Positions 282-19,710 of a stretch of 64,000 nucleotides of DNA are shown piece by piece. How positions within the stretch are numbered: position 1 is the stretch's first letter; every line of letters begins with the position of its first letter. The notes under the pieces were generated by a model. The model had not been told where the DNA came from, did no database searches, and saw only the letters and a list, made by a program, of their open reading frames with translations. A program made the translations under genes and the position numbers. The DNA lies in the NCBI RefSeq assembly GCF_002117005.1, contig NZ_CP021023.1, forward strand, positions 2,900,995 through 2,964,994. Reading direction: 5' to 3'. Source of the DNA: Sedimentisphaera salicampi. Lineage in GTDB: Bacteria > Planctomycetota > Phycisphaerae > Sedimentisphaerales > Sedimentisphaeraceae.

Positions 282-683
282 TTACCCTAAATCCTTAAAA
301 GATGACTTTCTTACCAGCTCACCGATTGCTTAGGTTTTTTATGCCTGTCCATACAATGAGTTAAGGTATTTTTTATAGGCAATTGTTTGTTCGATTTTTT
401 TTTATTTTTTTTTCGTAAAAATTAAGCACCTTCGGATAGAAGCTATTAAGAGGCCGGCGGAAACAGGCTTCCAAAAAAATTAAGTTTGTTAATAGGTTAA
501 GCCGAGTTGGCTGAGCAGTTAACGGGAAAAATATTTTGATTAGTTCTCAAAATTGGTTGATAAAAAGTTGCCGCAAATCTTTCGGTTCGCAGCCGCAGAC
601 CTGCGGCAGTCTTTGTTTCGTTGAAGGCGTCGTCGTTCGACGCTTAGAAGTAATGTTTTAATCTTATTTCGGAGGCAATGAAA
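282..683. other. Intergenic region, AT-rich, two hairpins before the first LamG gene
   Basis: No gene is seen. The stretch has long T runs (about 397-413). Two GC-rich hairpins follow: GCCGCAG/CTGCGGC at 592-607, and GCGTCG/CGACGC around a TCGTT loop at 627-643. They lie in what is probably the 5' leader of the LamG gene at 684. Neither has a T tail, so they are more likely mRNA-stabilising or regulatory structures than terminators. No known riboswitch consensus was recognised. Confidence 0.4.
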
Positions 684-2849
684 ATGCTGAAAAAAATGAA
701 ATCGTTAATCTTTTTGTGTTCAGTTCTCGCTGCGGCGGGCGTCTGGGCTGGGGATATTGTCCCGGGCTTTGATGATGCCGACGCTCTTTGCGACTACACT
801 GCTGCCAGAGATGGTCAGACAAGCGACCCCGTAAATATCGACCCGGGCAGTCAGATTACCTTTGCAGCACGCTTCACACCAGCAGCTATTGATGTTAGCG
901 ACCCTGCTAACCCAGTAGTTGTTCTTGAAGTAGGCGGTACAACGTTCGGAAGCGGGTTCTACATCTGCAACGGAACCCTCGTTTACGCACTAAAGACAGG
1001 CGCAGGAGGCACTCCCCAGACAGGGCTTGAAGACCTTGATTTGGGAGACAGTGCCGCATCTGTTATTCTCGGCGAGCTTCAAGCCGAGGAGCAGGTGGAG
1101 GTGTTCCTCTCTCTCGACCTTTCAACAGGGAAAGTTGCATACAGCATCAACGGTGATTATGCAGTTAAGAAATTCATCAACCACCCCGGCCAGACCAATC
1201 TGACAGGCAACAATTCCGTTGCATTCCTCGGTGCTGGCGGCTTAAATTCCGGACATATGGGCGGATTAACAGGAGGAGACAACGGCCAAATGGATCTTCT
1301 CAATGCCGACCATATCTTCAGTATGCAGGGTGTTGAAGGGGCTGATATCCGCGGGCAGATATTTAATGATGTATTCGATGATTCCTACATCCCGCACGAC
1401 CCGAATCCTGCCTCAGGTGCGGTAAATGTTGACCCAAGCTCAACAACAAGCCTTTCTTTCTACACAGCAGAAGACCTCGCAAACCCGGGCGCTCAGAATC
1501 CTGATGTAACTGCACATTTTGTTACCTTCTATGAAGGCGCAGACGGCGAGCCGAATATGGATCAGATTATCTCTGAAGACACAATCGCAGCCGGCGCAGA
1601 TCCCATCAGCTTCCCGTATTCATTCCAGAGAGGCGATGAGGTGTTCTGGCAGATTGAAGAGCAGATTAACGGGGCGGCCAAGGGCAGCGAAGAAAACATC
1701 AAAGGCCCAGTTTGGTCTTTCAAGGCTCTTAAAACGATTCCCTCGTTTTTAGACCAGCCCGAAGATCAGCTCGTGTTTGAAGATGAGGATGCAGAGTTTG
1801 TATGCGGGATCAATTCCGGCGAGCCGATTTCAACCCTGAACTGGTATAAGGTTGGCGAACCTGACGTTGTAGTTGATGATTCCGATCCGGACATCACAAT
1901 CACAACCGTTCAGGACGGTGAAGACTATACTTCAACGCTCACAATCACAAACCTCGAAATGGCAGACGAAGGCCAGTATTATTGTCAGGCAGAAAACATA
2001 AACGGTACAAATACATCAGACAGCGCTTCGCTCAAGCTCAAAAGGCTCGTAGCCCATTATCAGTTTGATGGCGATTATACAGATTCTGCCAGCGGTTATG
2101 ATATAACCCCTTACGATACTGAGCTCACCGGCCAGTGGACAGAAGGTGTTATAGGGCAGGCCCTTAACCTGAAAGATTTTGCTGATGAAAACGCGACCCC
2201 TACAAGCTCAGGCGGAAACACAGCAGATTTGCTGTATCCGGGCGAAGGAACAGGTATGATGACATTATCAGCCTGGATCCAGTGGAGCGGGCCTAACCCC
2301 GCAGGCGGATTCTGGTCTCACTGGTTTGGAAATGATGGAGCCGGCGGCTTTAATTTTGCTATTCAGGCAAACAGGGGAGGCGGAAGGTTGCATATAAACA
2401 GCCCTAACGGAGTTATGGATCCATTGTTTGACAACTTCCTCCCCGGTTCAATTGAAAATCTTATTCAGGATGAATGGGTTCTGGTAACTGCAACTGCAAA
2501 TACTGTAAGCGGAAAGCTGTATATGAACGGGCAGCTTGTGCTTGAAGATTCTGGCTTTTCAATAGCAACTAACGAAACGAACATTTATGTTGGTTGCGAG
2601 GGAAGCAGTACTAACAAGCCGGCTTATGGCTACATCGACGATGCAAGGGTGTACAACTACATACTCAGTGATGATGAGGTAGCTCAGCTTTACTATGATG
2701 TTACAGGCGAATCTGTATGCTCAGATTTCAATGCAGAAAATCTCCAGTACGATTTCGACGGAGACTGTCAGGTTAGCCTGAGCGATCTTCAGACTGCTGC
2801 TGGCGGCTGGCTGAATTCCAAGCTTTATCCGTCGGACGGTTCGTTGTAA
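684..2849 (+). CDS. Secreted LamG/Ig-like surface protein with dockerin-like tail
   Basis: Predicted exported protein of 721 residues; no catalytic motif is seen, so a structural or carbohydrate-binding role is inferred. It has a Sec signal peptide (MLKKMKSLIFLCSVLAAAG, cleaved near VWA-GD), then an N-terminal beta-rich region to about residue 230. A fibronectin-like sandwich follows to about 355, then an Ig-like domain at about 355-455 with the usual DEGQYYC signature. A LamG/concanavalin-like domain spans about 456-675. A short Ca-binding dockerin-like repeat (YDFDGDCQVSLSDL...GGWL) closes the protein. The start at 684 is preferred over ATG 678 because GGAGG at 671-675 is 8 nt from 684 and only 2 nt from 678. 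It is paralogous along its whole length to the next gene. Confidence 0.85.
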   Translation: MLKKMKSLIFLCSVLAAAGVWAGDIVPGFDDADALCDYTAARDGQTSDPVNIDPGSQITFAARFTPAAIDVSDPANPVVVLEVGGTTFGSGFYICNGTLVYALKTGAGGTPQTGLEDLDLGDSAASVILGELQAEEQVEVFLSLDLSTGKVAYSINGDYAVKKFINHPGQTNLTGNNSVAFLGAGGLNSGHMGGLTGGDNGQMDLLNADHIFSMQGVEGADIRGQIFNDVFDDSYIPHDPNPASGAVNVDPSSTTSLSFYTAEDLANPGAQNPDVTAHFVTFYEGADGEPNMDQIISEDTIAAGADPISFPYSFQRGDEVFWQIEEQINGAAKGSEENIKGPVWSFKALKTIPSFLDQPEDQLVFEDEDAEFVCGINSGEPISTLNWYKVGEPDVVVDDSDPDITITTVQDGEDYTSTLTITNLEMADEGQYYCQAENINGTNTSDSASLKLKRLVAHYQFDGDYTDSASGYDITPYDTELTGQWTEGVIGQALNLKDFADENATPTSSGGNTADLLYPGEGTGMMTLSAWIQWSGPNPAGGFWSHWFGNDGAGGFNFAIQANRGGGRLHINSPNGVMDPLFDNFLPGSIENLIQDEWVLVTATANTVSGKLYMNGQLVLEDSGFSIATNETNIYVGCEGSSTNKPAYGYIDDARVYNYILSDDEVAQLYYDVTGESVCSDFNAENLQYDFDGDCQVSLSDLQTAAGGWLNSKLYPSDGSL

Positions 2850-2888
2850 TTGTTGAGAGATTTTTAAGACCTATTAGGAGATAATAAA

Positions 2889-5048
2889 ATGAATGCAAAA
2901 ATAAAACTACTTACAGTTCTTTTCACCTGCTTTATTGCAGGATTTGCGGCGGCGGGAGATATTGTCCCGGGCCTTGATGATTCGACTGCTGAATTCGACT
3001 ATACTACACCTACCGACAACGCAAACGCTATTGTCGTGAATACAACCTACAAAACAACATTCGCTGTTGTCTGCACGCCCAGTGCTGATGATATCTCAAA
3101 TTCCTACAGCGGCTCTGTTGTAGTGCTTGAGAACGGCGGGACAGGTAACGGTTCCGGGATTTACATCACCAACGGGATGTATGTCTTCTATGCCAAAGAT
3201 GACAGCAGCGCTGGTGCATATCCATCAGGTATGTACGATACAGACCTAAGCGATAACAGCATTAGCCTTCCTATCGGAGCTGCCGTTGCTGATACCGAGC
3301 AGACCGTGTATTTTTCTTACGACGCCCCCGCAGGCCAAGGCTATGGCGCAGTGGACGGTCAGGCCGTGAGCTATTCAGTAACAGGTTTCGATGGCGAGAT
3401 AGATCTCAGCGGCAGCCAGACTGTTACCTTCCTCGGTACCCACGAGGGCGGTATTGCTGGAGGCCCTGGCAATCTCGGCGCAATGACAGGCAATACCGAA
3501 GCCCCGAATATCTACCACGTTGATTCTATCCGTACATTTACCGATCCTGAGATAGGCAATATTAGGGCGCAGATATTTTACGATGTAAACTTTGATGTGC
3601 TTCCTAACGACCCGAGCCCTGCAAACGGCGAGATAGATGTGGATCCTGATGCTGTTACTCAGCTCCAGTTTGATGCCGCAGAAGACCCTGCAAATCCGGG
3701 TTCTGTGAATCCGAATATTACAGGCCATTTCGTTACTGTTTACAGCAGCTATTCGCCGGATCCAAATCAGGCAAGTACTGTTGATTATGAAACTTTCGTG
3801 CCCGCAGGCAGCGATCCGGTTACAGTGCCTTACACCTTCCAGCTCGGTGATGTTATTTACTGGCAGGTGGAAGAGCAGATCAGCGGAGCATCTAAAGGCG
3901 ATTCTGCCAATATTCCCGGCCCTGTCTGGAGTTTCGAGGCGCTGCCCGCAATTCCGGTTATCGATTCAGCCCCTGCTGATGCTGCCGGCTTTGCCGGAGA
4001 AACTCTCAGTATGACCTGCGAGTTTACAAGCAAAAGCCCTGCTAATGTATTCTGGGTTAAGGCGGGCGATCCGGAAATCATCCTTGACGAATCCGACCCT
4101 GATATCACCTTTTCCGGCTCCCAGCATGGCGACAGTTATGTTTCAACGCTTGAAGTGGCCAATATTGAAATAGCTGATCAGGGCGAGTATGTATGCAGAG
4201 TTACAAATGCGGATGGCAGCGTGGATACTGCTTCTGCCAAGCTCGGCGTTAAACGCACGATTGGCTACTGGCCGCTGGACGGCGATTATACAGACGCCTC
4301 AGGCGAAGGCCATGATGCAGACCCGAACGTAGTTCCTCAGCCCGAGCAGTGGGTTGACGGTGTTGACCCTGCCAAGACAGGCCAAGCGCTTGATACCGTA
4401 CCAGAGCCGTACGCTGCAGCAGCAACTGAGGCTTTCGCACCAGCTGCTTACACCAACGAAATGACTATTTCTCTGTGGGTGAAATGGAGCGGCGATGAGT
4501 CTCCGGGCGGATTCTGGTCAGGCCTTGTTTCAAGTAATGGCGATAACGGCAATAACTGGTTCTTCGAGCTTTCTGCCAACGGGCAGCTTCACGCAAACGC
4601 ACCGGGCTACAACCCTTGGGGTAATATTGAAGCAGACAACCTCACTCCAGGCGAATGGGCACACGTTGCTCTTGTTAATGAAGCAGGAGAAGTCGGCAAG
4701 ATGTACATAAACGGGGCGCTTGTTGCCGTTGACGAGACTTATCAGGTTTCAAAGGCTGAGAACCCTGTATATCTGATGTGCGAGGGAATGCTCGCAGATG
4801 GTACGCTCGACAGGCCAACTGTAGGTGTATTCGATGAGATTAAGATGTACAACTATGCCCTTACCGGCGAAGAAATTGCTGCCGAATACTACGATATCAC
4901 AGGTGAAACTGTCTGTGCAGACCCGTATTCACCTGATTTGCAGTTCGATATCAACGGCGATTGCGAAGTAACCCTTGCTGATTTTGCTATGTTCGCCGCT
5001 GACTGGGGAGAATGTAACCTGCTCCCTTCATCAGCTTGCGATTTCTAA
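2889..5048 (+). CDS. Secreted LamG/Ig-like surface protein, paralogue of upstream gene
   Basis: 719 residues with the same architecture as the preceding gene: signal peptide (MNAKIKLLTVLFTCFIAGFAAA), the same mature start GDIVPG, a fibronectin-like region with the matching WQVEEQISGA segment, an Ig-like domain ending DQGEYVC, a LamG domain, and a dockerin-like tail (FDINGDCEVTLADFAMFAADW). It starts 39 bp downstream of its neighbour behind TAGGAG at an 8-nt spacing, so the two form a tandem duplicated pair, likely co-transcribed. A terminator closes the unit. A surface or binding role is inferred from the domains; no active-site residues are seen. Confidence 0.85.
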   Translation: MNAKIKLLTVLFTCFIAGFAAAGDIVPGLDDSTAEFDYTTPTDNANAIVVNTTYKTTFAVVCTPSADDISNSYSGSVVVLENGGTGNGSGIYITNGMYVFYAKDDSSAGAYPSGMYDTDLSDNSISLPIGAAVADTEQTVYFSYDAPAGQGYGAVDGQAVSYSVTGFDGEIDLSGSQTVTFLGTHEGGIAGGPGNLGAMTGNTEAPNIYHVDSIRTFTDPEIGNIRAQIFYDVNFDVLPNDPSPANGEIDVDPDAVTQLQFDAAEDPANPGSVNPNITGHFVTVYSSYSPDPNQASTVDYETFVPAGSDPVTVPYTFQLGDVIYWQVEEQISGASKGDSANIPGPVWSFEALPAIPVIDSAPADAAGFAGETLSMTCEFTSKSPANVFWVKAGDPEIILDESDPDITFSGSQHGDSYVSTLEVANIEIADQGEYVCRVTNADGSVDTASAKLGVKRTIGYWPLDGDYTDASGEGHDADPNVVPQPEQWVDGVDPAKTGQALDTVPEPYAAAATEAFAPAAYTNEMTISLWVKWSGDESPGGFWSGLVSSNGDNGNNWFFELSANGQLHANAPGYNPWGNIEADNLTPGEWAHVALVNEAGEVGKMYINGALVAVDETYQVSKAENPVYLMCEGMLADGTLDRPTVGVFDEIKMYNYALTGEEIAAEYYDITGETVCADPYSPDLQFDINGDCEVTLADFAMFAADWGECNLLPSSACDF

Positions 5049-5081
5049 AAACATAGAGTAAAATCAATCTATAAACAAATG

Positions 5082-5113
5082 AGACCCGTTGGCGTAAAAT
5101 CAGCGGGTCTTTT
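5082..5113 (+). terminator. Intrinsic terminator after tandem LamG pair
   Basis: Ten-base-pair stem AGACCCGTTG/CAGCGGGTCT with one G-T pair and a 9-nt loop, followed by TTTT. Confidence 0.75.
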
Positions 5114-5161
5114 CCTGTATCGGCACATAACACTAACTAACCTCTGTTTTAAGGGCAAAAT

Positions 5162-8100
5162 ATGGCAATTATATTTCTATTTATTATTCTTTTCTGCTCA
5201 TTTGCAGCGGGGCAGGGCGAGGTTGTTTTTGATGCATCTCAGGCTCATTATCCGCCTGCTGTAAACAAATTCAGCGACGGCGTTTTCTTCGATAACACTG
5301 AACGCCGCGACCATAACGAGATGATAGCCCGAATGGATGAGATGAAATGCCTGATGATTGATTCGAATATCAGGGAATCACGCAGGAATTATAAAGACGG
5401 CTCTGATACAATGATCGGCAATGACCCTCTCAATTCCAGCAATCCCAACGGGCTTTTCTATATCGACCAGCAGGGCGAGGTGCAGGCGAACTGCGATTTG
5501 AACTGGATTGAGAGGCGTTCGGAATGCCTCTCCGCAGGCCTGCTGAACTACATCCGCTGGGACGGCGTTCCATATCTTGCAAACGACAACCCCGCAGACG
5601 ATTATTTCACCCTTGATCCATTCCGAGGAATTCCCGCAGGCGATCCAAAACCCGGCGACTACAACCCGCCTTGCGCACAGGCCGACCGCCCGCTTTTTGC
5701 TCAAAAAATGGGCGAGCTTATTGAAAAAATGCACGATAATGAACCCGATTTTGTGCCCACTATCTGGTCTTTCTGGCAGGAGGTGGAGCATTGCCTCGGC
5801 GACCCTACCCCTTGGGATAACAATCTTACCGCTGAAGATAAGATGAACAACCTCGAGATGTTTATCAATGATTTTTACGGCAATTTAGTGCCTCTTATCA
5901 AGGATGTTGACCCCGATTACAAGATTGCCGGCATTCAGCAGAATTCTGCGATGTCTGAGTGGAGCAGTTTCAATCTTATTTCAGACTACGGCACGATCGG
6001 CGGCTCCGGCCTCGGCAATGCCGCCCACTTCTGGGCTGAGATGGAAGAGCAGAACGCACGGGAGTATCCCTTTGATTATCTCACAATTCAATCCTACCGC
6101 GGAACTAATATCCCCTCTCACCATATACCAAACAGCCGCTTTGCGCTCAAAAATCTTATGGCAGAGCTGCATCCGGAAAAGATCGACCGCTTCAACAGAA
6201 CATCCGTTTTCATCAATGAGGCAAAGTATTACAAAACAACGCCGCCGGAGAGCTCCATTGCTGAGATTAAGTGGCTCTTAGACCTCGCCGATATCCCCGA
6301 GCTTGCTTACGCCTCATTAAACGTTATGCTTCGTGATTACAATCAGGAGCCGCGTGTGCGTTTCCTTGAGGTGTACAGCGCGATGCCTGAAGGCAGATTG
6401 GCCGCTCAGAATTCATCCCAGCTTGGCTGCATAGGCTCCTACCAGCCCGGAGACGGCTTCTACGGCTTCTTCTATAATGAAACCGACTCAAGCGGGAATG
6501 CAGAGGTAAGCGTTGAGGGTGCTGGGCTTTCGCTAAATGATGAGGCCGCTTTCTGGACGCTCGATTACAACAGCTCTGATATGTATGCCCCTTCATTCTG
6601 GGTTCAGAAAAATGATGTTGTAAGAGTTGATGAAAATACATGGCAAGCGTCTTATCAAGCCGGCGAGATTATGTTTATGGCGGTAAACGGCAATCCTGAG
6701 ATTAATCCAGGGCAGAACTACTATCAGCTCAGCCCCGAGAGCAAATTATCGCTCAGGCACAGCAGGATTCAGCGCGGGGTTTACTCCTGCCATGATATGT
6801 ATGTTCCTCGTATAAACGATATGACTCCCAGCCAATGGGGATACCTCACCCCGCCCGAACCGGAGGGCATGGGATACTTCGACCAGCAGCAGGGCAGGAT
6901 GATTCTCGGCGTGAAGAACGAAAGCGGCGTGGGCTGCGCGAGCGTGAATCTGAGAGAAGTGCCCGAGCACAATTATTTCGTAAAAGCAGATTTCTCAGGC
7001 GTCGGTCTGCCTTCGCCCCTCCCGCAGGGCAGCTCGCTTATGCTCCGCCTCGATTATCTAAACGGCGAAGAGGTAATGGAATCGCATATTGTTGGAGATT
7101 CCTCTGCCGCTAACCCCCTCAGCTTTGACGACATCGGCTGGTTCGCCCCGAGCAATGCTGTTTATTCCAGCACCTCGGAAATTTGGAATCAGAGAGAATT
7201 TATCCTGCCTGTAAGCTCTTGGCAGCCTGCCGGCTGGGCAGAGGCAGATGGAGGCGTTCGCAGAATCCGCATCTCTTTGCTCCTTGCAGGGCTCAATGAG
7301 CCTGCGGCTCTTATGTGCGATTTTGACGATACGATTACAGTAAGCCCGCCGGAGATTACATCTCAGCCCGAGAGCGAAACTGTGCCCGCAGGCCAGAGCA
7401 TTCAGCTTACAATAAACGGCTCAGATATATCCGAATATCGGTGGCATAAAGACGGCGTCCCCATTCCTGACGACCCAACCAACACCGAGCATTTCGGTGA
7501 AGACGGCCCGAGCCTCGTGGTATTGAACGTTCAGCCGGAAGATGAGGGAGAATATTCCTGCGTTGTGAATAATCAGGACGGGGCTGTTGCAGAATCCGAG
7601 CCTGCCCAAGTGATAACCGAAAGGCTTGCGGGCTGGTGGAAATTTGACAGCGACCTATCCGATTCGGTTAATCAGGCTCATCCCTCTGCCGGCTCTCACA
7701 ACGGCGCAGCGGATTCGCCGGCGTTTTCCTCTGCCGGCATAGATGGGGCGTGCCTGAATTTGGATGGCACAATCAGCTCCGCCGCCGTTATTCAGGGAAG
7801 CGAGGATTTCTTCAATTTCTATACGCGCGGATATACTGTCAGTCTGTGGGTGAAAAGCGAGAGCGGCGCATCAGAGGCCGCCGGCCTTGCAGGGAAGATC
7901 TCGCAATCAGGCTCAAAGGGTTTCTCAGTTGGGGCAAACTATTTGGGCAATGCTGTGAGCATCCTTCACGGAGGCTGGTATTATATGAACTCAGGGGAAA
8001 ATGTATGCGATGAGAGCTGGCATCTTCTAACGGCGGCTTACGACCCTGTAAGCAGCGAAGGACGTATCTATATCGACGGCGAGCTTGCCAAAACTATCAA

Positions 8101-8545
8101 TTCCCTTGGCGCTCCGCAAGGCTCTCCTGCTGAATTCGTGATAGGTGCATCAGGGCTTTTCTCAAATGATGCCTTTAACGGCCGGATTGATGATGTTCGG
8201 GTTTGGACATATCCCTTAGCCCCGATTGATGCAGCAAATCTCTATCTCGATTTTGTTCCAGAGGCGGAAATTTGCCTTTCATACCCGCAATACGATATCG
8301 CAGGCCCCGACGGGGCAGGCGAGCAGTACCGAGACTGCATTGTAGATTTCTACGACCTGTCTGCCGTTGCTCAAAGCTGGCTTACCGGTGAAAATCAGCC
8401 CGGCTGCACAACATATCCGCAATATGATTTTGCCGGCGAAGGCGGAATAGGCGAGGAGCATAGAGACTGCTTTGTAAATATGTATGATTTTATCCCGATA
8501 TCCTCGCACTGGCTTGAGAGCAATATAATTGCTTCGCCGCAGTAA
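5162..8545 (+). CDS. Putative clan GH-A glycoside hydrolase with Ig, LamG and two dockerin-like repeats
   Basis: 1127 residues with signal peptide MAIIFLFIILFCSFAAG. Residues about 25-520 look like a (beta/alpha)8 hydrolase. IWSFWQEVEH near residues 201-210 resembles the acid/base strand of clan GH-A enzymes (candidate Glu207), and SVFINEAKYY (candidate nucleophile Glu353) fits the second catalytic strand. That is a motif-level inference; the closest named families could be GH39-like or agarase-like. A beta-sandwich linker follows to about 725, then an Ig-like domain (about 729-821, DEGEYSC), a LamG domain (about 823-1032), and two dockerin-like repeats (YPQYDIAGPDG...SWL and YPQYDFAGEGG...HWL). 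The start is supported by AAGGG six nt upstream. Probably secreted to degrade an external polysaccharide. Confidence 0.75.
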   Translation: MAIIFLFIILFCSFAAGQGEVVFDASQAHYPPAVNKFSDGVFFDNTERRDHNEMIARMDEMKCLMIDSNIRESRRNYKDGSDTMIGNDPLNSSNPNGLFYIDQQGEVQANCDLNWIERRSECLSAGLLNYIRWDGVPYLANDNPADDYFTLDPFRGIPAGDPKPGDYNPPCAQADRPLFAQKMGELIEKMHDNEPDFVPTIWSFWQEVEHCLGDPTPWDNNLTAEDKMNNLEMFINDFYGNLVPLIKDVDPDYKIAGIQQNSAMSEWSSFNLISDYGTIGGSGLGNAAHFWAEMEEQNAREYPFDYLTIQSYRGTNIPSHHIPNSRFALKNLMAELHPEKIDRFNRTSVFINEAKYYKTTPPESSIAEIKWLLDLADIPELAYASLNVMLRDYNQEPRVRFLEVYSAMPEGRLAAQNSSQLGCIGSYQPGDGFYGFFYNETDSSGNAEVSVEGAGLSLNDEAAFWTLDYNSSDMYAPSFWVQKNDVVRVDENTWQASYQAGEIMFMAVNGNPEINPGQNYYQLSPESKLSLRHSRIQRGVYSCHDMYVPRINDMTPSQWGYLTPPEPEGMGYFDQQQGRMILGVKNESGVGCASVNLREVPEHNYFVKADFSGVGLPSPLPQGSSLMLRLDYLNGEEVMESHIVGDSSAANPLSFDDIGWFAPSNAVYSSTSEIWNQREFILPVSSWQPAGWAEADGGVRRIRISLLLAGLNEPAALMCDFDDTITVSPPEITSQPESETVPAGQSIQLTINGSDISEYRWHKDGVPIPDDPTNTEHFGEDGPSLVVLNVQPEDEGEYSCVVNNQDGAVAESEPAQVITERLAGWWKFDSDLSDSVNQAHPSAGSHNGAADSPAFSSAGIDGACLNLDGTISSAAVIQGSEDFFNFYTRGYTVSLWVKSESGASEAAGLAGKISQSGSKGFSVGANYLGNAVSILHGGWYYMNSGENVCDESWHLLTAAYDPVSSEGRIYIDGELAKTINSLGAPQGSPAEFVIGASGLFSNDAFNGRIDDVRVWTYPLAPIDAANLYLDFVPEAEICLSYPQYDIAGPDGAGEQYRDCIVDFYDLSAVAQSWLTGENQPGCTTYPQYDFAGEGGIGEEHRDCFVNMYDFIPISSHWLESNIIASPQ

Positions 8546-11243: not shown

Positions 11244-11301
11244 CGTGCTCAGAATTCTGAGCTGCGGATGAATATCTAATTTCAGTAAATCATCTTTAAA
11301 G

Positions 11302-11333
11302 GCCTGAACGTAAGATTGCGTTCAGGCTTTTTT
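11302..11333 (+). terminator. Intrinsic terminator after GH127-like gene
   Basis: Perfect nine-base-pair stem GCCTGAACG/CGTTCAGGC with an 8-nt loop and a T-rich tail (TTTTTTCTT). Confidence 0.9.
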
Positions 11334-11334
11334 C

Positions 11335-11362
11335 TTGCAAAATAACGTTATATAGATATAAA
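11335..11362 (+). promoter_or_regulatory. Candidate sigma-70-type promoter for the DUF1266/beta-helix gene
   Basis: TTGCAA and TATAAA separated by 16 nt, directly after the terminator and about 50 nt upstream of the next start codon. Confidence 0.4.
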
Positions 11363-11413
11363 TAACTTCTATGTATTATACTCTTGTAATTTGATTTATT
11401 GGAAGATCTTTAA

Positions 11414-13642
11414 ATGAAGTATTTATATGTCCTCGCTGCTGTTTGCATATCTGCATTATGCTTGGCTGAAATCCCTGAAGACTGGAAAAAATCAATAGAG
11501 AACGGAAACATCTCATACACTATGAAGCGTAATCCGCCTGCTGAACTGGCACCTAAAGAGTACAATGACGTTCAGCGATGGGGGCTTATGGCCGGAGCGG
11601 TCCTTGCCTATCATAATCACTTCTTCCTTGATTCCTTCGAAACCTCCTGCGTTGATAATAAATGGAGTATGGCTGAAGATAAGGCTCTTTTGGAGTCGTC
11701 TTGGGGGATAACCTGCAGGGAGGATTATTTGAGTACTATGCGAAGCTTGTTCAGCGCCGGACATAGAGCCGGCTTCAAAAGGGTGAGTAATTATGCAGGC
11801 AAGATCAATGAAAAATATTTCGACGACATATTCGCCGGCTCTGTTGATAAGCCGGGCGAGGCATATCCGTTGTACATTGCCAAAGAGTTTGGGCCTCAGC
11901 TGAAGGACAAGAGCATTACAGGCTGGGATTTTACAAGAGTTATATATTTATCGCGAAACTGCAGCAAGCTTGGTTATATCTCTGAACAGCTGGCTTGGGA
12001 ATATATCTATGAAGCTTCTGTCATACTTCAGAGAACTTTTGATTCTTGGGATGAGCTTTTTGATAACTATATTATAGGAAGAAATTTCTGGTCTTTCAGC
12101 AGCTCTCTGGAGAGAAATGCCCGCTTTAATAATGAAATAAGAAGGCTTAAGAAGGTCAAAGACAGTTCTGCATTTAATCTTGACTGGAACTTGAAGCTCT
12201 CGAAGGAAAAGATGTTTGCTCCCGGGCAGCAAGCTGATATTGAAACAGAACCTGTTGAAATGAATTTCGAGCTTTCAAAAAGCATTCAGCTTTCAGATAT
12301 TAAAGAACAGTTCGAGAATGTAATCTCAGTACCCTCAGACTGCAAAACGATAGAGAAAGCTATGGAAAGGGCGCAGGCAGGGGATTGCATATACGCAGAA
12401 AAGGGCACTTATTATTTTCAGGAGCCTCTTGTTTTTAAAACGGGAGTCAGTCTTATTGGGCAGTCTCGGGATGAGGTTGTTTTGTCGGTAATTAAAACAA
12501 ATTCTCAAGTAATAAAGCTCAAAGATGCGATGGATGTTAAGCTTTGCAACTTTACTGTAAAGCAGACTGCATTCAATTTTGATAAGGAAAATACTTCCTC
12601 CCTTCTTGGCTTAGGCAAGAGCAGTTGTGCAGTCGAAAACCTCAAAGTTGAAGGTAAAAGTTTGTATGGGATATATTCAAGGGGGGATAAAGTTAAGATT
12701 ATAAATTGCGAGGTGGATACAAAACAATTATGCATTTATCTTCGGTGTAAAAAGGCTGAAATCAAAGGCTGCCTGCTGTCAGGAAGTTCAAAAATCGGCA
12801 TCAAAAATAAAAGCAGCGAGCTTACAGTATCAGATACATATATAGCGGGCAAAGGGGCAGGTATAGCAAATTTTTCAGCAGATTTGTACGTTGCTGATTG
12901 TTTTATTGAAAATAACAGATATGGGATAAGTTCCCAAAAAAGCAGCAAAATGAATATTAGCGACACCTTTATTGTATCAAATGATACAGGCTGCATAGTT
13001 CAAGGCTGCAATAACTTTGTGGTTTCTGATGTGCAGTTTGTTGGAAACTCTTTTGGGTTTAGAATTAATTTTGCGGAAAATTCAAAAACTGAAAGAAACT
13101 TGTTTTATTTGAATCATATGCAAGGCTGCAGGATACGAGGAGATGTAGAAAGTCTTAATTTAAAAAGCAATATATTCAGAAAAAATGGATTTGCGGGATT
13201 AGACATTGAATCAAGATTTTCAAAGCAGCTTATCGTGGATAATAATTTGTTTGACGAGAACGTAAAGTTTGCGATGCATGCTTCTTCGGTCGGGGTTAGT
13301 TTGAAAGGCAATATCTTTACCCGTACAAACGGTCCAGCATTATATCTGACAAGCTGCCCTCAATATGACCCTATAGATGGGAATGAATTTATAGATAATT
13401 ATGGCATACCCGTTTTGGTTTCTAAAAGCGTGGATGAGTTTTGTGAAAAAACAACCAGCATCACACGCAATAATAAGTTTAAAAATAACAGCTCCTTATT
13501 AAATATCAGCCATGAACCGGAGATTGAACACGGCTGGCCTCTGGATAAATATTTAAAATATATGAAAAAGCTTGAAGAGACCAAAGAAAAGCTTCAAGAG
13601 ACCAGAGAAAAGGCTGAAGAGATTGAAGAATCTGAAGGCTGA
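11414..13642 (+). CDS. Secreted DUF1266 and right-handed beta-helix fusion protein
   Basis: 742 residues with signal peptide MKYLYVLAAVCISALCLA. Residues about 55-225 carry the DUF1266 pattern: RWGLMAGAVLAYHN, ESSWGI, SAGHRAGF, ITGWDFTRVIYLSR, SWDELFDNYIIGRNFW. Residues about 300-700 are a pectin-lyase-like parallel beta-helix starting with a NosD/DUF1565-type coil (CKTIEKAMERAQAGDCIYAEKGTY) and many short repeats with regularly placed Asn, Ser and Gly. The last 30 residues are a Lys/Glu coiled coil. GGAAG lies 8 nt before the ATG. DUF1266 is known mainly from enterobacterial proteins of unknown function, so the exported fusion is unusual. No catalytic residues are claimed. Confidence 0.75.
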   Translation: MKYLYVLAAVCISALCLAEIPEDWKKSIENGNISYTMKRNPPAELAPKEYNDVQRWGLMAGAVLAYHNHFFLDSFETSCVDNKWSMAEDKALLESSWGITCREDYLSTMRSLFSAGHRAGFKRVSNYAGKINEKYFDDIFAGSVDKPGEAYPLYIAKEFGPQLKDKSITGWDFTRVIYLSRNCSKLGYISEQLAWEYIYEASVILQRTFDSWDELFDNYIIGRNFWSFSSSLERNARFNNEIRRLKKVKDSSAFNLDWNLKLSKEKMFAPGQQADIETEPVEMNFELSKSIQLSDIKEQFENVISVPSDCKTIEKAMERAQAGDCIYAEKGTYYFQEPLVFKTGVSLIGQSRDEVVLSVIKTNSQVIKLKDAMDVKLCNFTVKQTAFNFDKENTSSLLGLGKSSCAVENLKVEGKSLYGIYSRGDKVKIINCEVDTKQLCIYLRCKKAEIKGCLLSGSSKIGIKNKSSELTVSDTYIAGKGAGIANFSADLYVADCFIENNRYGISSQKSSKMNISDTFIVSNDTGCIVQGCNNFVVSDVQFVGNSFGFRINFAENSKTERNLFYLNHMQGCRIRGDVESLNLKSNIFRKNGFAGLDIESRFSKQLIVDNNLFDENVKFAMHASSVGVSLKGNIFTRTNGPALYLTSCPQYDPIDGNEFIDNYGIPVLVSKSVDEFCEKTTSITRNNKFKNNSSLLNISHEPEIEHGWPLDKYLKYMKKLEETKEKLQETREKAEEIEESEG

Positions 13643-14279
13643 AAGCTCCCTGTATTTCAGTTTTAAGCCGAAGGTTTTTGAATGAAAATACCAAAAACAC
13701 AAAGCTGAAATTTCGCGTTGGGCGTTATTTTTCGAAAAAAATTGAAAATTTTTACTGACCTGACAAGGCCTGTCCATTATTGTCGGTTAGCTTGTTTATT
13801 AGGCTGTTAGGCTGTTTTTTAAGCTTGTTTTTTGTGTTTTTATTGATGACTTCGAAAAAAAATAAAATATTTTTTATAAACCTTACTTGACATTTCCGCC
13901 GTTTTCCCCTAAGGGTATAGGGGAGTTGAGAGAAAGTGCAGATTCAATTGCAGTGCCGATTCGCAGTATCTTGCTGGATTGGTGCAGTCTGCAGATGTAT
14001 AATTTCACGTTGCCGTTTGATGGCAGCGTTGCGACCGGGAAAAATTTTCCCGAGAATGATTAGCCCCGCTGAAAGCGGTTTGATCTTGATTTGGTCTTTA
14101 AGACTAAAGTGGACGTTTCGGTATATCCGAACGTTTCCCCGTGCCATGGGCGTGTTCACGCCCGATAAGCGGACGAACGAAGAACGGCAGAAATGCGCCG
14201 GTTGAAATATGCGCATAAAGTGAGCGCGGTTTTGCCCGGCTTAAGTTAAAGAAAAAATGATATTATTTTAGGAGAAACT
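13643..14279 (+). other. Long non-coding leader before metK, dense in hairpins
   Basis: No credible gene in 637 bp. The first 240 bp are AT-rich. A perfect TTGACA box lies at 13887-13892, and nine hairpin candidates follow: 13906-13923 (CCCCTA/TAGGGG), 13937-13993 (TGCAGA/TCTGCA), 14007-14029, 14036-14052 (CGGGAAAAATTTTCCCG), 14066-14078 (CCGCT/AGCGG), 14094-14104, 14113-14134, 14148-14163 (GGGCGT/ACGCCC) and 14193-14216. TAGGAG at 14269-14274 is the metK ribosome-binding site. None of the known SAM or SAH riboswitch consensus cores was recognised. It may be a cis-acting metK leader or an independent structured RNA. Confidence 0.5.
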
Positions 14280-15461
14280 ATGAGTAAGATTCTTGACGAA
14301 CACGTGTTTACTTCAGAATCGGTTAGTCCTGGACATCCGGACAAAGTTTGCGATCAGATTTCTGATGCAGTACTGGATTCCTGTCTGGCGAAAGACCCAA
14401 AAAGTCGTGTGGCTTGCGAAACCCTTGTAGGGCACAATCTTGTTGTTAATGCTGGTGAAATCACATGCAGCGGCATTGATTCAATCAATACCGAAAAAAT
14501 AGCCAGAGATGTTGTTAAAGAAATCGGCTACGACAGGAAAGAACTCAAATTCTGGCACGATTCGTTTGAGTACATCTCACGCATACACGGACAGAGCCCT
14601 GATATCTCTCAGGGGGTTACCGAAGGCGAAGGCCTCTTCGATGAGCAGGGTGCTGGCGATCAGGGTATGATGTTTGGCTATGCCTGCAATGAAACACCTG
14701 AGCTTATACCAACCCCAATTGCTTTGAGCCATCGTTTGCTGATGGAGCTTGATAAGATACGCAAGTCTGGGAAGATCGACTATCTCAGGCCTGATTCAAA
14801 GTCTCAGGTTTCAGTGAAGTATGTTGGAGGTAAGCCTCAGTATATTACAACTGTGCTTATCAGCCACCAGACTAATGATGTGCCGCTGGATAAGATTCGT
14901 GAAGATCTTGTAAAAATTGCCAAGGATGTCCTTGAGCCTACAGGTCTTCTGCGGGATGATACTGAATACTACATAAACCCGACTGGAAAATTCGTTCTCG
15001 GCGGGCCTTACGCAGATGCCGGTCTTACAGGGCGTAAGATTATCGTGGATACATACGGTGGTGTAGGAAGCCATGGCGGAGGTGCTTTCTCTGGTAAAGA
15101 CCCGTCAAAGGTTGACCGTTCAGCTGCTTACTATTCTCGCTATGCTGCGAAGAATATTGTTGCAGCAGGGCTTGCTGAGAAGTGTGAGATTCAGGTATCT
15201 TATGCTATCGGTATGGCTAGGCCTTTGAGCATTAACGTGGAGACATACGAAACCGGCAAGGTTGATAACGTTAAGATTCAGAAGATTCTTGAGTCCGGCC
15301 AGATCTTTGATTTCCGTCCGGCAGCAATACTTGAAGATCTAAATCTTCTCAAACCGTCCGGATGGAGCTATATAGATTCTGCAAAATACGGACACTTCGG
15401 CCGTGATATGTTCCCATGGGAAAAGACTGATAAAGTAGAACAGCTTAAAAAGGCGCTTTAA
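14280..15461 (+). CDS. metK: S-adenosylmethionine synthase
   Basis: Makes S-adenosylmethionine from methionine and ATP in the cytoplasm. The 393 residues are the usual family length. Visible signatures: FTSESVSPGHPDKVCDQISD at the N-terminus, the GAGDQGMMFGYA methionine/ATP loop, the GGGAFSGKDPSKVDRSAAY phosphate-binding segment, and GHFGR near the end. TAGGAG five nt before the ATG fixes the start. It heads a tight run with the PfkB kinase (1 bp gap) and ahcY, so SAM formation and removal of its by-products are co-expressed. The methyltransferases just downstream are probably its main consumers. Confidence 0.97.
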   Translation: MSKILDEHVFTSESVSPGHPDKVCDQISDAVLDSCLAKDPKSRVACETLVGHNLVVNAGEITCSGIDSINTEKIARDVVKEIGYDRKELKFWHDSFEYISRIHGQSPDISQGVTEGEGLFDEQGAGDQGMMFGYACNETPELIPTPIALSHRLLMELDKIRKSGKIDYLRPDSKSQVSVKYVGGKPQYITTVLISHQTNDVPLDKIREDLVKIAKDVLEPTGLLRDDTEYYINPTGKFVLGGPYADAGLTGRKIIVDTYGGVGSHGGGAFSGKDPSKVDRSAAYYSRYAAKNIVAAGLAEKCEIQVSYAIGMARPLSINVETYETGKVDNVKIQKILESGQIFDFRPAAILEDLNLLKPSGWSYIDSAKYGHFGRDMFPWEKTDKVEQLKKAL

Positions 15462-15462
15462 T

Positions 15463-16470
15463 ATGGCTCGTTTAGAAGAGAAAAAAATTATTGGTGTCGG
15501 CTCGCCTGTAATGGATCTGCTTGCCCAGGTGGATGATGAGTTTGTCTCAACACACGCAGGGTCTAAGGGCGGAATGGAGCTCGTTGAGGATATGCAGATT
15601 CAAACAATCGTGCAAAACCTCAAATCAGAGCCTGCCATTGCTGCCGGCGGGTCTGCGGCTAATACAATTTTTGCTCTTGCAAAGCTTGAAGTTGCAGCTG
15701 CTTTCCTCGGAAAGGTTGGCAGAGATGAGACCGCCAAGGAATATCTCGACCAGTTCGAGAAGCTCAAGGGCGATCTTTCGAAGTTTAAATACTGTGATGA
15801 ATCCGCTACAGCCAAATGCCTCAGCCTTGTTACTGATGACGGCGAAAGAACAATGCGGACATGTCTTGGAGCAGCGGCTAATATGGCCGAGGGTGATATA
15901 GACGTGGAAGATTTCAGAGGCTTCGATCATGCCCACTTTGAGGGCTATCTCCTCTTCAACAAGGAGATGGCAGTTGCGGCATTAAAGGCTGCTAAAAAAG
16001 CAGGCTGCTCGGTGAGTTTGGATCTTGGTTCTTTCGAGGTGGTAAAGGCTGCCGGCGATGGGCTCCGCGATTTATTGCGGGAATATGTGGATATTGTCTT
16101 TGCAAATGAAGATGAGGCAGAGGCTTTCACCGGAGATTCCAATCTCGAAACTGCTCTTAGCGACCTCTCTGAGCTTTGCGATGTTGCAGTCGTTAAGCTT
16201 GGGGCAAAAGGTGCAATGCTTCGTGATGAAACGGGCAAGGCTGTAGTAGAAGCCGGCAAGGCAGAAACAGTGATTGATACTACAGGAGCCGGAGATTACT
16301 GGGCAGCCGGATTCCTATACGGATATCTAAACGGTTTGCCCATTAAAGAATGCGGAGAGCTCGGTTCTCTGATAGGTGCAGAAGTAGTTCAGCATCTTGG
16401 AGCAGATCTGCCTTCTGAGCGTTGGCAGAATGTGCTTGAGCAGTTCAAGAGCCGTGTTTTAGTAGAATAA
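15463..16470 (+). CDS. PfkB-family kinase, probable adenosine kinase
   Basis: 335 residues of the ribokinase/PfkB fold: N-terminal GVGSPVMDLLAQVD, the GGSAANTIFALAKL substrate-side motif, and the C-terminal anion-hole signature DTTGAGDYWAAGF with catalytic Asp. It lies one base after metK and 29 bp before ahcY. S-adenosylhomocysteine hydrolase releases adenosine, which a kinase must remove to pull the reaction forward, so adenosine is the most likely substrate. The family also includes ribokinase and fructokinase; the assignment rests on similarity and context. Confidence 0.8.
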   Translation: MARLEEKKIIGVGSPVMDLLAQVDDEFVSTHAGSKGGMELVEDMQIQTIVQNLKSEPAIAAGGSAANTIFALAKLEVAAAFLGKVGRDETAKEYLDQFEKLKGDLSKFKYCDESATAKCLSLVTDDGERTMRTCLGAAANMAEGDIDVEDFRGFDHAHFEGYLLFNKEMAVAALKAAKKAGCSVSLDLGSFEVVKAAGDGLRDLLREYVDIVFANEDEAEAFTGDSNLETALSDLSELCDVAVVKLGAKGAMLRDETGKAVVEAGKAETVIDTTGAGDYWAAGFLYGYLNGLPIKECGELGSLIGAEVVQHLGADLPSERWQNVLEQFKSRVLVE

Positions 16471-16499
16471 TCTATTTTTGAATAACAGGAGAATTATAT

Positions 16500-17927
16500 A
16501 TGACTCAAACAAAGTCTATTAACAAAAAAATCAGTGATTACGCAATTGCGGATATCGAGCTTGCAGAGTTCGGACGCAGAGAAATTGAAATTGCAGAAAA
16601 AGAGATGCCAGGGCTGATTGCCATGCGTGAGAAGTATGGCCCAGATCAGCCTCTCAAGGGAGCAAAGGTTATGGGAAGTCTGCATATGACTATCCAGACC
16701 GCTGTTCTAATCGAAACACTTATTGCTCTGGGTGCGGATGTTCGCTGGGCATCGTGCAATATTTTCTCTACCCAGGACCACGCTGCCGCAGCTATCGTTG
16801 ACAGCGGCGTTCCGGTATTTGCCTACAAAGGCGAGACTCTCGAAGAGTACTGGCAGTACACTAAGAGAGCTCTTACATGGCCGGACGGCAGCGGCCCGGA
16901 TATCATCGTTGATGACGGCGGCGACGCTACACTTATGATTCACCGCGGCTACTTTGGCGAAGATAATCCTTCAATGCTTGATGAGCCTACAGACAACAAA
17001 GAAGTGAAGATTCAGAACGAGCTTCTCAAGGAAATCCAGAAGGAAGATAATAAGTTCTGGCATAAGCTGGCAAAGAACTGCCGCGGCGTTGCAGAAGAAA
17101 CAACAACAGGCGTTCACCGTCTCTATCAGATGAGAGACAAAGGCGAGCTTCTGTTCCCAGCAATTAACGTAAATGATTCTGTAACAAAGTCTAAGTTTGA
17201 CAATATCTATGGTTGCCGTGAATCCTGCGTTGATGCTATCAAGCGTGCTACGGATGTTATGGTTGCCGGTAAAACCGCTATGGTATGCGGTTTCGGAGAT
17301 GTGGGCAAAGGTTCTGCTCAGGCGCTTTCAGCTCACAGGGCGAAAGTTCTTATCAGCGAGATAGATCCAATCTGTGCTCTTCAGGCCTGTATGGCCGGCT
17401 ACACTGTGCGTACCGTGGAAGAAGCTCTGCCAGAGGCAGATATCTACGTTACAGCCTCAGGCAACTGTGATGTTATCACAGCGGAGCATATGAGCAAGAT
17501 GAAGGATCAGGCTATCGTTTGCAACATCGGCCACTTTGACAATGAGATTCAGGTTGACCAGCTCAACAACTGGCCGGGCGTAACGAAAACAGAAATTAAG
17601 CCCGGTACTCATCAGTACACATTCGAAGACGGCCGCTCAATCTACCTTCTCGCTGAAGGCAGGCTCGTTAATCTCGGCTGCGCAACAGGCCACCCGAGCT
17701 TTGTTATGTCTAACAGCTTCTCGAACCAGACCCTCGCTGCTATAGACAACTGGCAGAAGGATAAGAAGGTTGATGTTTATCACCTCGACAAAGAGCTTGA
17801 TGAAGAGGTTGCAAGGCTGCACCTCGGTAAGCTTGATGCACACCTTACCAAGATGACAAAGCATCAGTCTGATTATCTCGGTGTACCGGTCGAAGGACCT
17901 TACAAGCCGGAACACTATCGTTACTAA
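16500..17927 (+). CDS. ahcY: Adenosylhomocysteinase
   Basis: Hydrolyses S-adenosylhomocysteine to homocysteine and adenosine with NAD as a tightly bound cofactor, relieving product inhibition of methyltransferases. 475 residues, full length. Signatures: [31 protein letters not shown], the NAD-binding [10 protein letters not shown], and [14 protein letters not shown]. The family's usual C-terminal PYKPEHYRY is intact. AGGAG precedes the ATG. It is third in the metK unit and followed by a strong terminator, which separates it from the two methyltransferases. Confidence 0.97.
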
Positions 17928-17935
17928 GTAACTGT

Positions 17936-17962
17936 ACCGGAGGGTTTGTGCCCTCCGGTTTT
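17936..17962 (+). terminator. Intrinsic terminator after ahcY
   Basis: Perfect nine-base-pair stem ACCGGAGGG/CCCTCCGGT with loop TTTGTG and a T-rich tail. The T tail is short, so some read-through into the methyltransferase genes is possible. Confidence 0.85.
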
Positions 17963-18059
17963 AACTTTCGTTTTTATAACTCTCCGAAGGCAGGGTGCGC
18001 AAGTACTGCGCCTTAATATCCTTCAGAGTTTCTTAAAGTGAGTTTACGGAGAACTACTA

Positions 18060-18875
18060 ATGGCATTTAAAAAAGAACAATCATTTGGAACAAAACCAAC
18101 AGAAGTAAGAGACAGCGATCATTTCACCAGCGAATATGCTGATTCACTGGCTGAAAAATGGGACGATATCATAGACTGGGACAGCAGAGTAAAAGGTGAG
18201 GGCAGTTTCTTCATCGATAAGCTGCGTGAATACGGGGCAAAATACGTTCTCGATGTGGCTGCAGGTACTGGCTTTCACAGTGTAAGGCTCATTGAATCGG
18301 GCTTCAGCGTTACAAGTGCAGACGGCGCACCATCTATGCTCGCTAAGGCATTTGAAAATGCAAAGGCAAGAGGTCATGTCCTGCGTACAGTTTGCGCAGA
18401 CTGGAGATGGCTCAATAGAGATGTGCATGGTGAATACGATGCAGTAATCTGCCTCGGCAATTCATTTACTCATCTTTTCAATGAGCACGACCGCCGCAAG
18501 GCTCTCGCTGAATATTATGCTGCCCTAAAGCACGACGGCGTTCTTATCATCGACCAGAGAAACTACGACTCTATCCTCGATGACGGCTATTCCAGCAAGC
18601 ATAAATTCTACTACTGCGGCGATAAGGTGAGCGTTCAGCCGGTGCACGTTGATGAAGGGCTTACACGTTTTGAATATAAATTCCCCGGCAAAGACAGCTT
18701 CCATCTCAATATGTTCCCTATAAGGAAAGATTATATGAGAAATCTGCTCGGCGAAGTTGGTTTCCAAACAGTTACTACATACGGCGATTTCCAGACGAGT
18801 TTCGAAGAGTCTGAGCCGGATTTCTATGTTCACGTTGCTGAGAAGAAATATAATCCAGAGTTAAAGGAGAAGTAA
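18060..18875 (+). CDS. Glycine/sarcosine N-methyltransferase
   Basis: 271 residues. Transfers methyl groups from SAM to glycine and sarcosine, the first steps of betaine synthesis from glycine. The Rossmann-type SAM site is visible as VLDVAAGTGFHSVRLIESGF, followed by SADGAPSMLAKAFENA, then CADWRWL and ICLGNSFTHLF, all typical of halophile GSMT enzymes. Start supported by CGGAGAA upstream of the ATG. It ends one base before the next methyltransferase, so the two are co-translated. A small hairpin (GCGCA/TGCGC near 17997-18011) lies in its leader. Placement beside metK and ahcY supports an osmolyte role. Confidence 0.92.
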   Translation: MAFKKEQSFGTKPTEVRDSDHFTSEYADSLAEKWDDIIDWDSRVKGEGSFFIDKLREYGAKYVLDVAAGTGFHSVRLIESGFSVTSADGAPSMLAKAFENAKARGHVLRTVCADWRWLNRDVHGEYDAVICLGNSFTHLFNEHDRRKALAEYYAALKHDGVLIIDQRNYDSILDDGYSSKHKFYYCGDKVSVQPVHVDEGLTRFEYKFPGKDSFHLNMFPIRKDYMRNLLGEVGFQTVTTYGDFQTSFEESEPDFYVHVAEKKYNPELKEK

Positions 18876-18876
18876 A

Positions 18877-19710
18877 ATGAGTACAACTTATTCCAAACCA
18901 ATCCAGGTTGCACGGGATTACTACAACAGCGAAGACGCAGACAATTTTTATTTTCACGTTTGGGGCGGTGAGGATATTCACATCGGCCTTTATGACGGGA
19001 AAAATTCTATTCGTGAGGCAAGCAGAGAAACTGTGAAGGCGATGGCCGCCAAACTTTCAAAGCTCGATTCGGATGTGAAGATTTTAGACATTGGAGCCGG
19101 CTACGGCGGAGCAGCCCGTTTCCTCGCAGCCGAATACGGATGTCAGGTTACGTGCCTGAACCTCTCTGAAGTTGAGAACGAAAGAGACAGAGCTATGAAT
19201 AAAGAGCAGGGGCTTGATCATCTTATTGATGTTGTTGACGGCGCTTTTGAAGACCTGCCTTTCAAGGACAGCGAATTTGATATAATCTGGTCTCAGGATG
19301 CTATCCTGCACAGCAGCGACCGTGAAAAGGTGCTGAAGGAAGCTTGCAGAGTGCTCAAGAAGGGCGGCGAATTCGTATTCACCGATCCTATGCAGGACGA
19401 CAACTGTCCGCCGGATGTGCTTCAGCCTATCTACGACAGAATTCACCTCAGCTCGCTTGGAAGCCCAGGTTTCTATAAAGAAGCAGGCGAGAAGGTTGGA
19501 TTCAAGTTTGTGGATTTCGAAGACCATACATCACAGCTGCCTACACATTACGGCAATGTCCTCAAGGAATTTGAGAAAAGAGAAGATGAGCTCAAAGGTA
19601 TCGTAAGTGAGCAGTACGCTGCTAATATGAAAAAAGGCCTTCGTCATTGGGTGGAAGGCGGAAACAGCGGCCATCTTGCATGGGGCATATTCCTTTTCAA
19701 AAAAGTTTAA
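18877..19710 (+). CDS. Sarcosine/dimethylglycine N-methyltransferase
   Basis: 277 residues. Completes glycine betaine synthesis by methylating sarcosine and dimethylglycine with SAM. Signatures: ARDYYNSEDADNFYFHVWGG and the SAM-binding ILDIGAGYGGAARFLA, with LNLSEVEN and WSQDAILHSSDR typical of the SDMT branch. AAAGGAG precedes the ATG. It is the last gene of the pair and ends in a strong terminator. With the preceding GSMT it gives a complete glycine-to-betaine route, which fits growth at high salinity. Confidence 0.93.
   Translation: MSTTYSKPIQVARDYYNSEDADNFYFHVWGGEDIHIGLYDGKNSIREASRETVKAMAAKLSKLDSDVKILDIGAGYGGAARFLAAEYGCQVTCLNLSEVENERDRAMNKEQGLDHLIDVVDGAFEDLPFKDSEFDIIWSQDAILHSSDREKVLKEACRVLKKGGEFVFTDPMQDDNCPPDVLQPIYDRIHLSSLGSPGFYKEAGEKVGFKFVDFEDHTSQLPTHYGNVLKEFEKREDELKGIVSEQYAANMKKGLRHWVEGGNSGHLAWGIFLFKKV

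Follow-up and report, generated by a model that had tools for sequence, protein, structure and literature searches.

A predicted exported protein joining DUF1266 to a right-handed beta-helix in Sedimentisphaera salicampi, and the linkage of the two parts across the Sedimentisphaerales

A 742-residue protein of Sedimentisphaera salicampi was found to combine DUF1266, a domain without known function, with a long right-handed beta-helix. The gene lies in a 64,000-nucleotide stretch of the genome that was analyzed as a whole and is referred to here as the window. In a DUF1266 profile search of the 161 genomes of the host's order, 13 carried the domain (3 among the 66 most complete), and as judged from sequence it is physically linked to a beta-helix, fused or adjacent, in 13/13 carriers. 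The physical partnership is well supported, and the two parts probably work together outside the cytoplasm. The features of the locus were as follows.

11298..11331, + strand: strong intrinsic-terminator-like hairpin, 3' of the upstream GH127 gene (-21.7 kcal/mol, z -6.0)
11338..13692, + strand: segment present in the window and absent from the sister species G294, which has an empty site (nucleotide alignment)
11414..13642, + strand: complete gene with ATG start, predicted exported DUF1266 plus right-handed beta-helix protein, 742 aa (ORF, Pfam, AlphaFold2)
11414..11467, + strand: predicted Sec signal peptide, residues 1-18 (by eye)
11567..12199, + strand: all-helical DUF1266 domain, approximately residues 52-262 (Pfam 93-258, E 2e-29; domain model)
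12320..13468, + strand: right-handed parallel beta-helix, approximately residues 303-685 (PF13229, PF05048, model strands, Foldseek)
13541..13636, + strand: Lys/Glu-rich C-terminal helix, residues 710-741 (model); relatives have a beta-helix C-terminal cap there

The earlier note had proposed an exported DUF1266/beta-helix fusion, and this was borne out. The N-terminus, MKYLYVLAAVCISALCLA followed by EIPEDWKK, was read by eye from the translation as a Sec signal peptide. The suggested HMM check placed DUF1266 at residues 93-258, covering profile positions 2-175 of 175 (103.4 bits against a cut-off of 27), Beta_helix (PF13229) at 405-539 (62.3 bits against 25.9), and NosD (PF05048) at 581-697, together with a Pect-lyase match. 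The 742-residue protein was the only DUF1266 found in a search of the host genome, which is 99.89% complete and assembled as one 3.19-Mb contig. The hairpin, which was missing from the list of the consensus terminator scan, and the distance to metK, which starts 637 bases downstream, indicate that the gene is probably transcribed alone.

Structure prediction, also suggested beforehand, returned the expected layout, in which a helical N-terminal half is followed by a beta-helix and then by a helix at the C-terminus. The AlphaFold2 model of the full protein (7 sequences; mean pLDDT 69.8, pTM 0.52) contained helices in residues 52-246, beta-strands in 303-685 and a helix at 710-741. The anticipated "Lys/Glu coiled coil" thus survives as a Lys/Glu-rich segment, but as one helix of approximately 32 residues rather than a long coiled coil. 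The DUF1266 domain modeled alone (nt 11555-12220, 8 sequences) was helical, with pLDDT 81.1 and pTM 0.82. No PDB fold among those listed stood out for this domain, a result that marks its fold as neither new nor known: the best Foldseek E value was 0.35, the best VIA match had a Z of 4.3 with an rmsd of 4.0 over 82 aligned residues, a sequence-profile search of PDB chains gave zero matches at E < 0.1, and a viral fold library gave nothing useful for this question.

One-ORF fusions, with Pfam matches to both parts, were identified in 5/13 carriers: the window's G000, G295, G596, G602 and G719. The fusion thus recurs in four other genomes of the order; a search for it in relatives had been suggested in the earlier note. 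The remaining eight carriers (G511, G297, G314, G699, G700, G680, G734 and G675) encode the parts separately, with the beta-helix gene directly next to the DUF1266 gene on the same strand. The gaps from the DUF1266 stop to the first ATG, with start codons guessed, were 3, 2, -17, 40, 80, 56, -46 and 21 nt; the DUF1266 gene of G675 is truncated at a contig end. All eight downstream partners gave Pfam Beta_helix and NosD matches. As a side observation, the DUF1266 pair has two further genes close by at L029:7357-9014 and L030:2989-4668, one for a sigma-70-type factor (assigned by Pfam in L029) and one of unknown kind; in L029 both precede the pair on the same strand. The fragment at the contig end, L091:12614-12901, starts with RNVTGVQTCALPIF, which we take to be adapter-like sequence.

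The eight pairs share some surroundings. G297 and G734 (L030, L090) have five downstream genes in common, and G699, G700 and G675 (L087, L088, L091) share ThiC, 81-84% identical, and further neighbors. The pairs are therefore not independent and represent approximately five distinct neighborhoods. In the eight genomes, beta-helix matches account for no more than 0.4-1.9% of genes, upper bounds that assume one gene per kb, and multiplying the top frequencies of the five neighborhoods puts chance adjacency at approximately 3e-10; the adjacency is therefore not due to chance. With the same beta-helix profile, none was found near DUF1266 in the four loci outside the order (L019, L021, L022, L025). 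A class-level search matched DUF1266 in 7/397 sampled genomes, all within the host's order, and a phylum-level search with the Pfam model matched 3/294, the two outside the order over a partial profile only. The idea that the partner beta-helices form a private subfamily proved too strong, as other beta-helices of the same genomes score well too: on the N-cap profile L096 reaches 79 bits, more than the window's 62-69, and the C-cap profile picks up both L096 and L105.

Four of the five fusions (L027, L028, L092, L093) share with the window the order DUF1266, linker, beta-helix, at 24-25% identity over 508-708 aligned columns, but differ from it at both ends. Approximately 300 extra residues precede DUF1266, comprising hydrophobic segments with a HWRGEL-like motif (by eye) and then a ClpP-like domain (hhalign E 2.7e-4, probability 41.5), and a cap closes the C-terminus. 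The only N-terminal addition in the window's protein is its signal peptide; the ClpP-like domain and the cap are absent. By eye, site residues of the ClpP-like domain appear to be replaced in L093 (His) and L092 (Ser and His). A PDB sequence search with this part returned, among the matches shown, antibody light chains, which were regarded as noise. The membrane and ClpP-like module also occurs without DUF1266 in the order (L081, L082, L083, L084, L085, L086).

In the DUF1266 tree, from which L020 (same contig as L090) and L026 and L091 (same truncated fragment) were left out, the four long fusions formed one clade with support 100/100. G295, of the window's own family, sits in that clade with genomes of another family, a placement that points to horizontal transfer. 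The window's domain grouped with the split pairs (support 85/81), which suggests a second, separate fusion event for this gene; a single origin is also compatible, as a tree constrained to hold all fusions together was not rejected (AU p 0.318). The window's domain has a long branch of 2.45, is more diverged than any other in the order's set, and is changed at 12 positions where at least 8/10 other domains agree. This copy may have drifted or changed function.

Comparison with the sister species G294 gave information on mobility. The collinear flanks, 86.5% and 87.9% identical, stop at 11337 and restart at 13693, and in G294 they are 11 bases apart; the same neighbors are present there (GH127 at 91% and metK at 97% protein identity) without the DUF1266 gene. 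Both gain and loss would fit this empty site. The GC content of the window's gene was 39.3%, compared with an average of 48.7% (s.d. 2.3) over 27 ORFs hand-picked from the 54 in the window. In 11/11 loci tested, with L091 and L092 left out as truncated or on a contig that is almost all gene, the unit was lower in GC than its flanks, by 0.8 to 17.5 points (mean -5.9). For 19 other beta-helix ORFs from the same set of genomes the mean difference was -0.3 (Mann-Whitney p 1.3e-4), and L108, the one of 20 control loci left out, also differed by -0.3 points. Low GC is therefore not simply a trait of beta-helix genes. Together, the empty site and the low GC make horizontal movement of the unit likely. 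Free movement was considered too strong a description: the ThiC neighborhood is common to G699, G700 and G675, three f96 genera, which fits vertical descent there.

A fusion formed by chance, or an assembly artifact, with no functional meaning would fit the divergence of the window's copy and its absence from the sister species. This explanation is scarcely credible given the four other fusions, the eight tight pairs, the linkage throughout the order's carriers and the size of the chance product. An assembly artifact in particular was rejected, with the host genome in one contig and fusions in other genomes. The two outcomes that the earlier note had held against its own proposal, missing HMM support and a fusion confined to one misassembled genome, were thus replaced by their opposites.

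The beta-helix half was examined for signs of enzymatic activity. Foldseek matched it to the AlgE4 A-module (E 8.3e-6) and to other beta-helix proteins, with low whole-chain TM-scores, and its nearest solved folds include alginate epimerases, polysaccharide lyases and GH87 enzymes. These folds are compatible with a carbohydrate-active enzyme (lyase, epimerase or hydrolase) to which DUF1266 would be an accessory domain, as are the polysaccharide genes at some loci, namely, GH127 beside the window's gene and pectate lyase at L088. DPHD, W.DH and R.P..R are catalytic motifs of alginate epimerases and polysaccharide lyases. When these three, DH and G..DF were tested, all five were absent from 13/13 beta-helices (the window's and 12 related ones), and the neighbors elsewhere are housekeeping genes, such as ThiC at L087, L088 and L091. 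We therefore consider an enzyme unlikely, if still worth keeping in view.

The 12 related beta-helices instead showed a 23/24/47-residue periodicity, with a best autocorrelation of 0.15-0.46, and similar C-termini, with W(S/A)G in 11/12, TNP in 8/12 and WG(I/L) in 12/12. The window's beta-helix is irregular, without the 23/24 periodicity (best lags 30 and 48), and a charged helix takes the place of the conserved C-terminal cap. The missing motifs, together with the periodicity and shared C-termini of the relatives, favor a scaffold carrying a DUF1266 head. We propose an exported two-part module, present here in its one-chain form, and give this reading an even chance. Both parts would be exported by Sec. 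The beta-helix would be an elongated, nonenzymatic scaffold that holds a polymer of the envelope or the extracellular space, a glycan being the likeliest. The DUF1266 domain, compact and helical, would act as an interaction head binding a second protein or ligand. With such roles, each part would need the other nearby. In the four long relatives the module would be tethered through the N-terminal membrane region and ClpP-like domain; the window's more diverged copy would be soluble or periplasmic. Counting approximately five neighborhoods rather than eight pairs leaves our estimate for the scaffold-and-head module unchanged, since five are still far from chance.

Export was assessed from N-termini, by eye. 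Export-like N-termini were observed in the window's protein, in 7/7 complete unfused DUF1266 proteins and in 7/8 partners as called, the exception being L088, where the chosen ATG cuts away a possible signal. Outside the order, the DUF1266 protein of L022 (Rokubacteria) has a lipoprotein-like N-terminus; L021, L119 and L128 combine DUF1266 with Cu_amine_oxidN1; and L122 and L126 carry DUF1266 and TPR behind a likely signal, with a sub-threshold TPR in L127. L019 has CsgG, a sub-threshold TPR and DUF1266 within one protein; at L019:464-6654 CsgG-like proteins are encoded in succession, one of them including DUF1266, with a lone DUF1266 after them. No export-like N-terminus was seen by eye in L120, L121, L130 and L131, or in E. 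coli YbeR and YbeU. Overall, the export-like N-termini and exported partner domains support the occurrence of DUF1266 outside the cytoplasm, here and in relatives of several phyla, in agreement with what the earlier note had suggested. Its description of DUF1266 as known mainly from short enterobacterial proteins did not hold: in the phylum of L021's genome (a Clostridiales MAG), 14/398 sampled genomes carried DUF1266, and several of these proteins were multidomain in a further-domain scan that covered eight of the 14.

Some of these contexts would fit a different role, in which DUF1266 would serve its partner specifically, in folding, export or quality control, and a fused protein would bring its helper along. 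The E. coli genes ybeR and ybeU overlap the J-domain genes djlB and djlC, and such overlaps of DUF1266 and J-domain genes occur in Erwinia too. In L124:1-2007, from L021's phylum, a DnaJ match below threshold (19.3 bits against 27.8) precedes TPR and DUF1266, and by eye the protein also has a probable membrane segment. HscC works with DjlB and DjlC, according to an excerpt of PMC8215388, and the ClpP-like domain of the four fusions could be taken in the same sense. However, DUF1266 is kept permanently in the fused form, although a helper with only a transient part in folding would not require this; also, by eye, residues of the ClpP-like site look replaced in two of those four fusions. A helper role was accordingly judged improbable.

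An interbacterial competition or immunity element was also considered, in which an exported DUF1266 displayed on the beta-helix would neutralize an incoming toxin. On a Bacteroides finegoldii plasmid (L041:6611-8426), two DUF1266 genes are arrayed with Imm5, PoNe immunity and ankyrin genes, and the unit studied here is sporadic, AT-rich and missing from the sister species. The Bacteroides case is, however, one plasmid, and no toxin-immunity pair was seen by Pfam among 15 flanking genes at 7 split-pair loci. Within its FG-GAP repeats, one protein at L087 just exceeds the TcdB_toxin_midN cut-off (25.6 bits against 24.8), and this was read as a repeat cross-match. We give the immunity role a low probability. 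A broader version of the module can be imagined, in which a horizontally moving, exported recognition device of the Sedimentisphaerales would have in DUF1266 a general head for binding proteins, exchanged among scaffolds built of repeats (beta-helix, TPR) and domains of the envelope (Cu_amine_oxidN1-like, CsgG-like), here serving competition or protection at the cell surface; we offer it as a speculation that is probably wrong in this form.

The protein was also compared with known families. The W, R, G, W, Q, SW, GR and W positions of the DUF1266 family (PF06889; E. coli YbeR, YbeU and YnjI) were common to 11 aligned domains. YbeR and YbeU lie beside J-domain genes and lack export-like N-termini, whereas the window's DUF1266 is predicted to be exported and is fused to a beta-helix. 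The beta-helix had been called "NosD-like" in the earlier note, which holds for the fold and not for identity. NosD (TIGR04247/PF05048), a periplasmic protein of the nitrous oxide reductase cluster, is also an exported right-handed beta-helix and matches at the domain level, but orthology was ruled out (TIGR04247, 52.6 bits against a cut-off of 300), and the gene is flanked by GH127 and metK instead of a nos cluster. AlgE4, AlgG, PL6 and RbmB (alginate C-5 epimerases and polysaccharide lyases) have some of the solved folds nearest to the beta-helix half; the window's protein differs from them in lacking the tested motifs and in its all-helical N-terminal domain. In excerpts of PMC6329079, PMC7582179 and PMC10044804, DUF1266 appears as table entries only, the last being the source for YnjI as a DUF1266 protein, and no report tying DUF1266 to a beta-helix was found in the excerpts of the literature searched.

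Several other regions of the window were recorded. At 14280-19710, genes for metK, a PfkB-family kinase, ahcY, glycine/sarcosine N-methyltransferase (486.7 bits, cut-off 350) and a likely sarcosine/dimethylglycine methyltransferase (452.1 bits, below the cut-off of 550) lie in a row. These assignments suggest a glycine betaine operon that includes SAM recycling of its own. An AT-rich leader of approximately 590 bases (13693-14279), alignable to the sister species, lies ahead of metK; an Rfam scan of the window at gathering thresholds, this leader included, gave zero matches. Three tandem ORFs with Ig and Laminin_G_3 domains occupy 678-8545, the one at 5162-8545 with a dockerin-like tail (by eye), and a fourth relative lies at 36629-38848. 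PADLOC, phage and viral-contig searches gave nothing informative.

For DUF1266, a partner that is fused or adjacent in all 13 carriers found in the order provides a concrete interaction to test, and the predicted exported fusions and pairs suggest that the domain can work outside the cytoplasm. The small two-gene units suit structural and binding work, and because the window's copy is the most diverged, a split pair would be the better experimental subject. The missing motifs suggest a scaffold role for these beta-helices; if that is right, it may extend to some other beta-helix proteins of the Planctomycetota.
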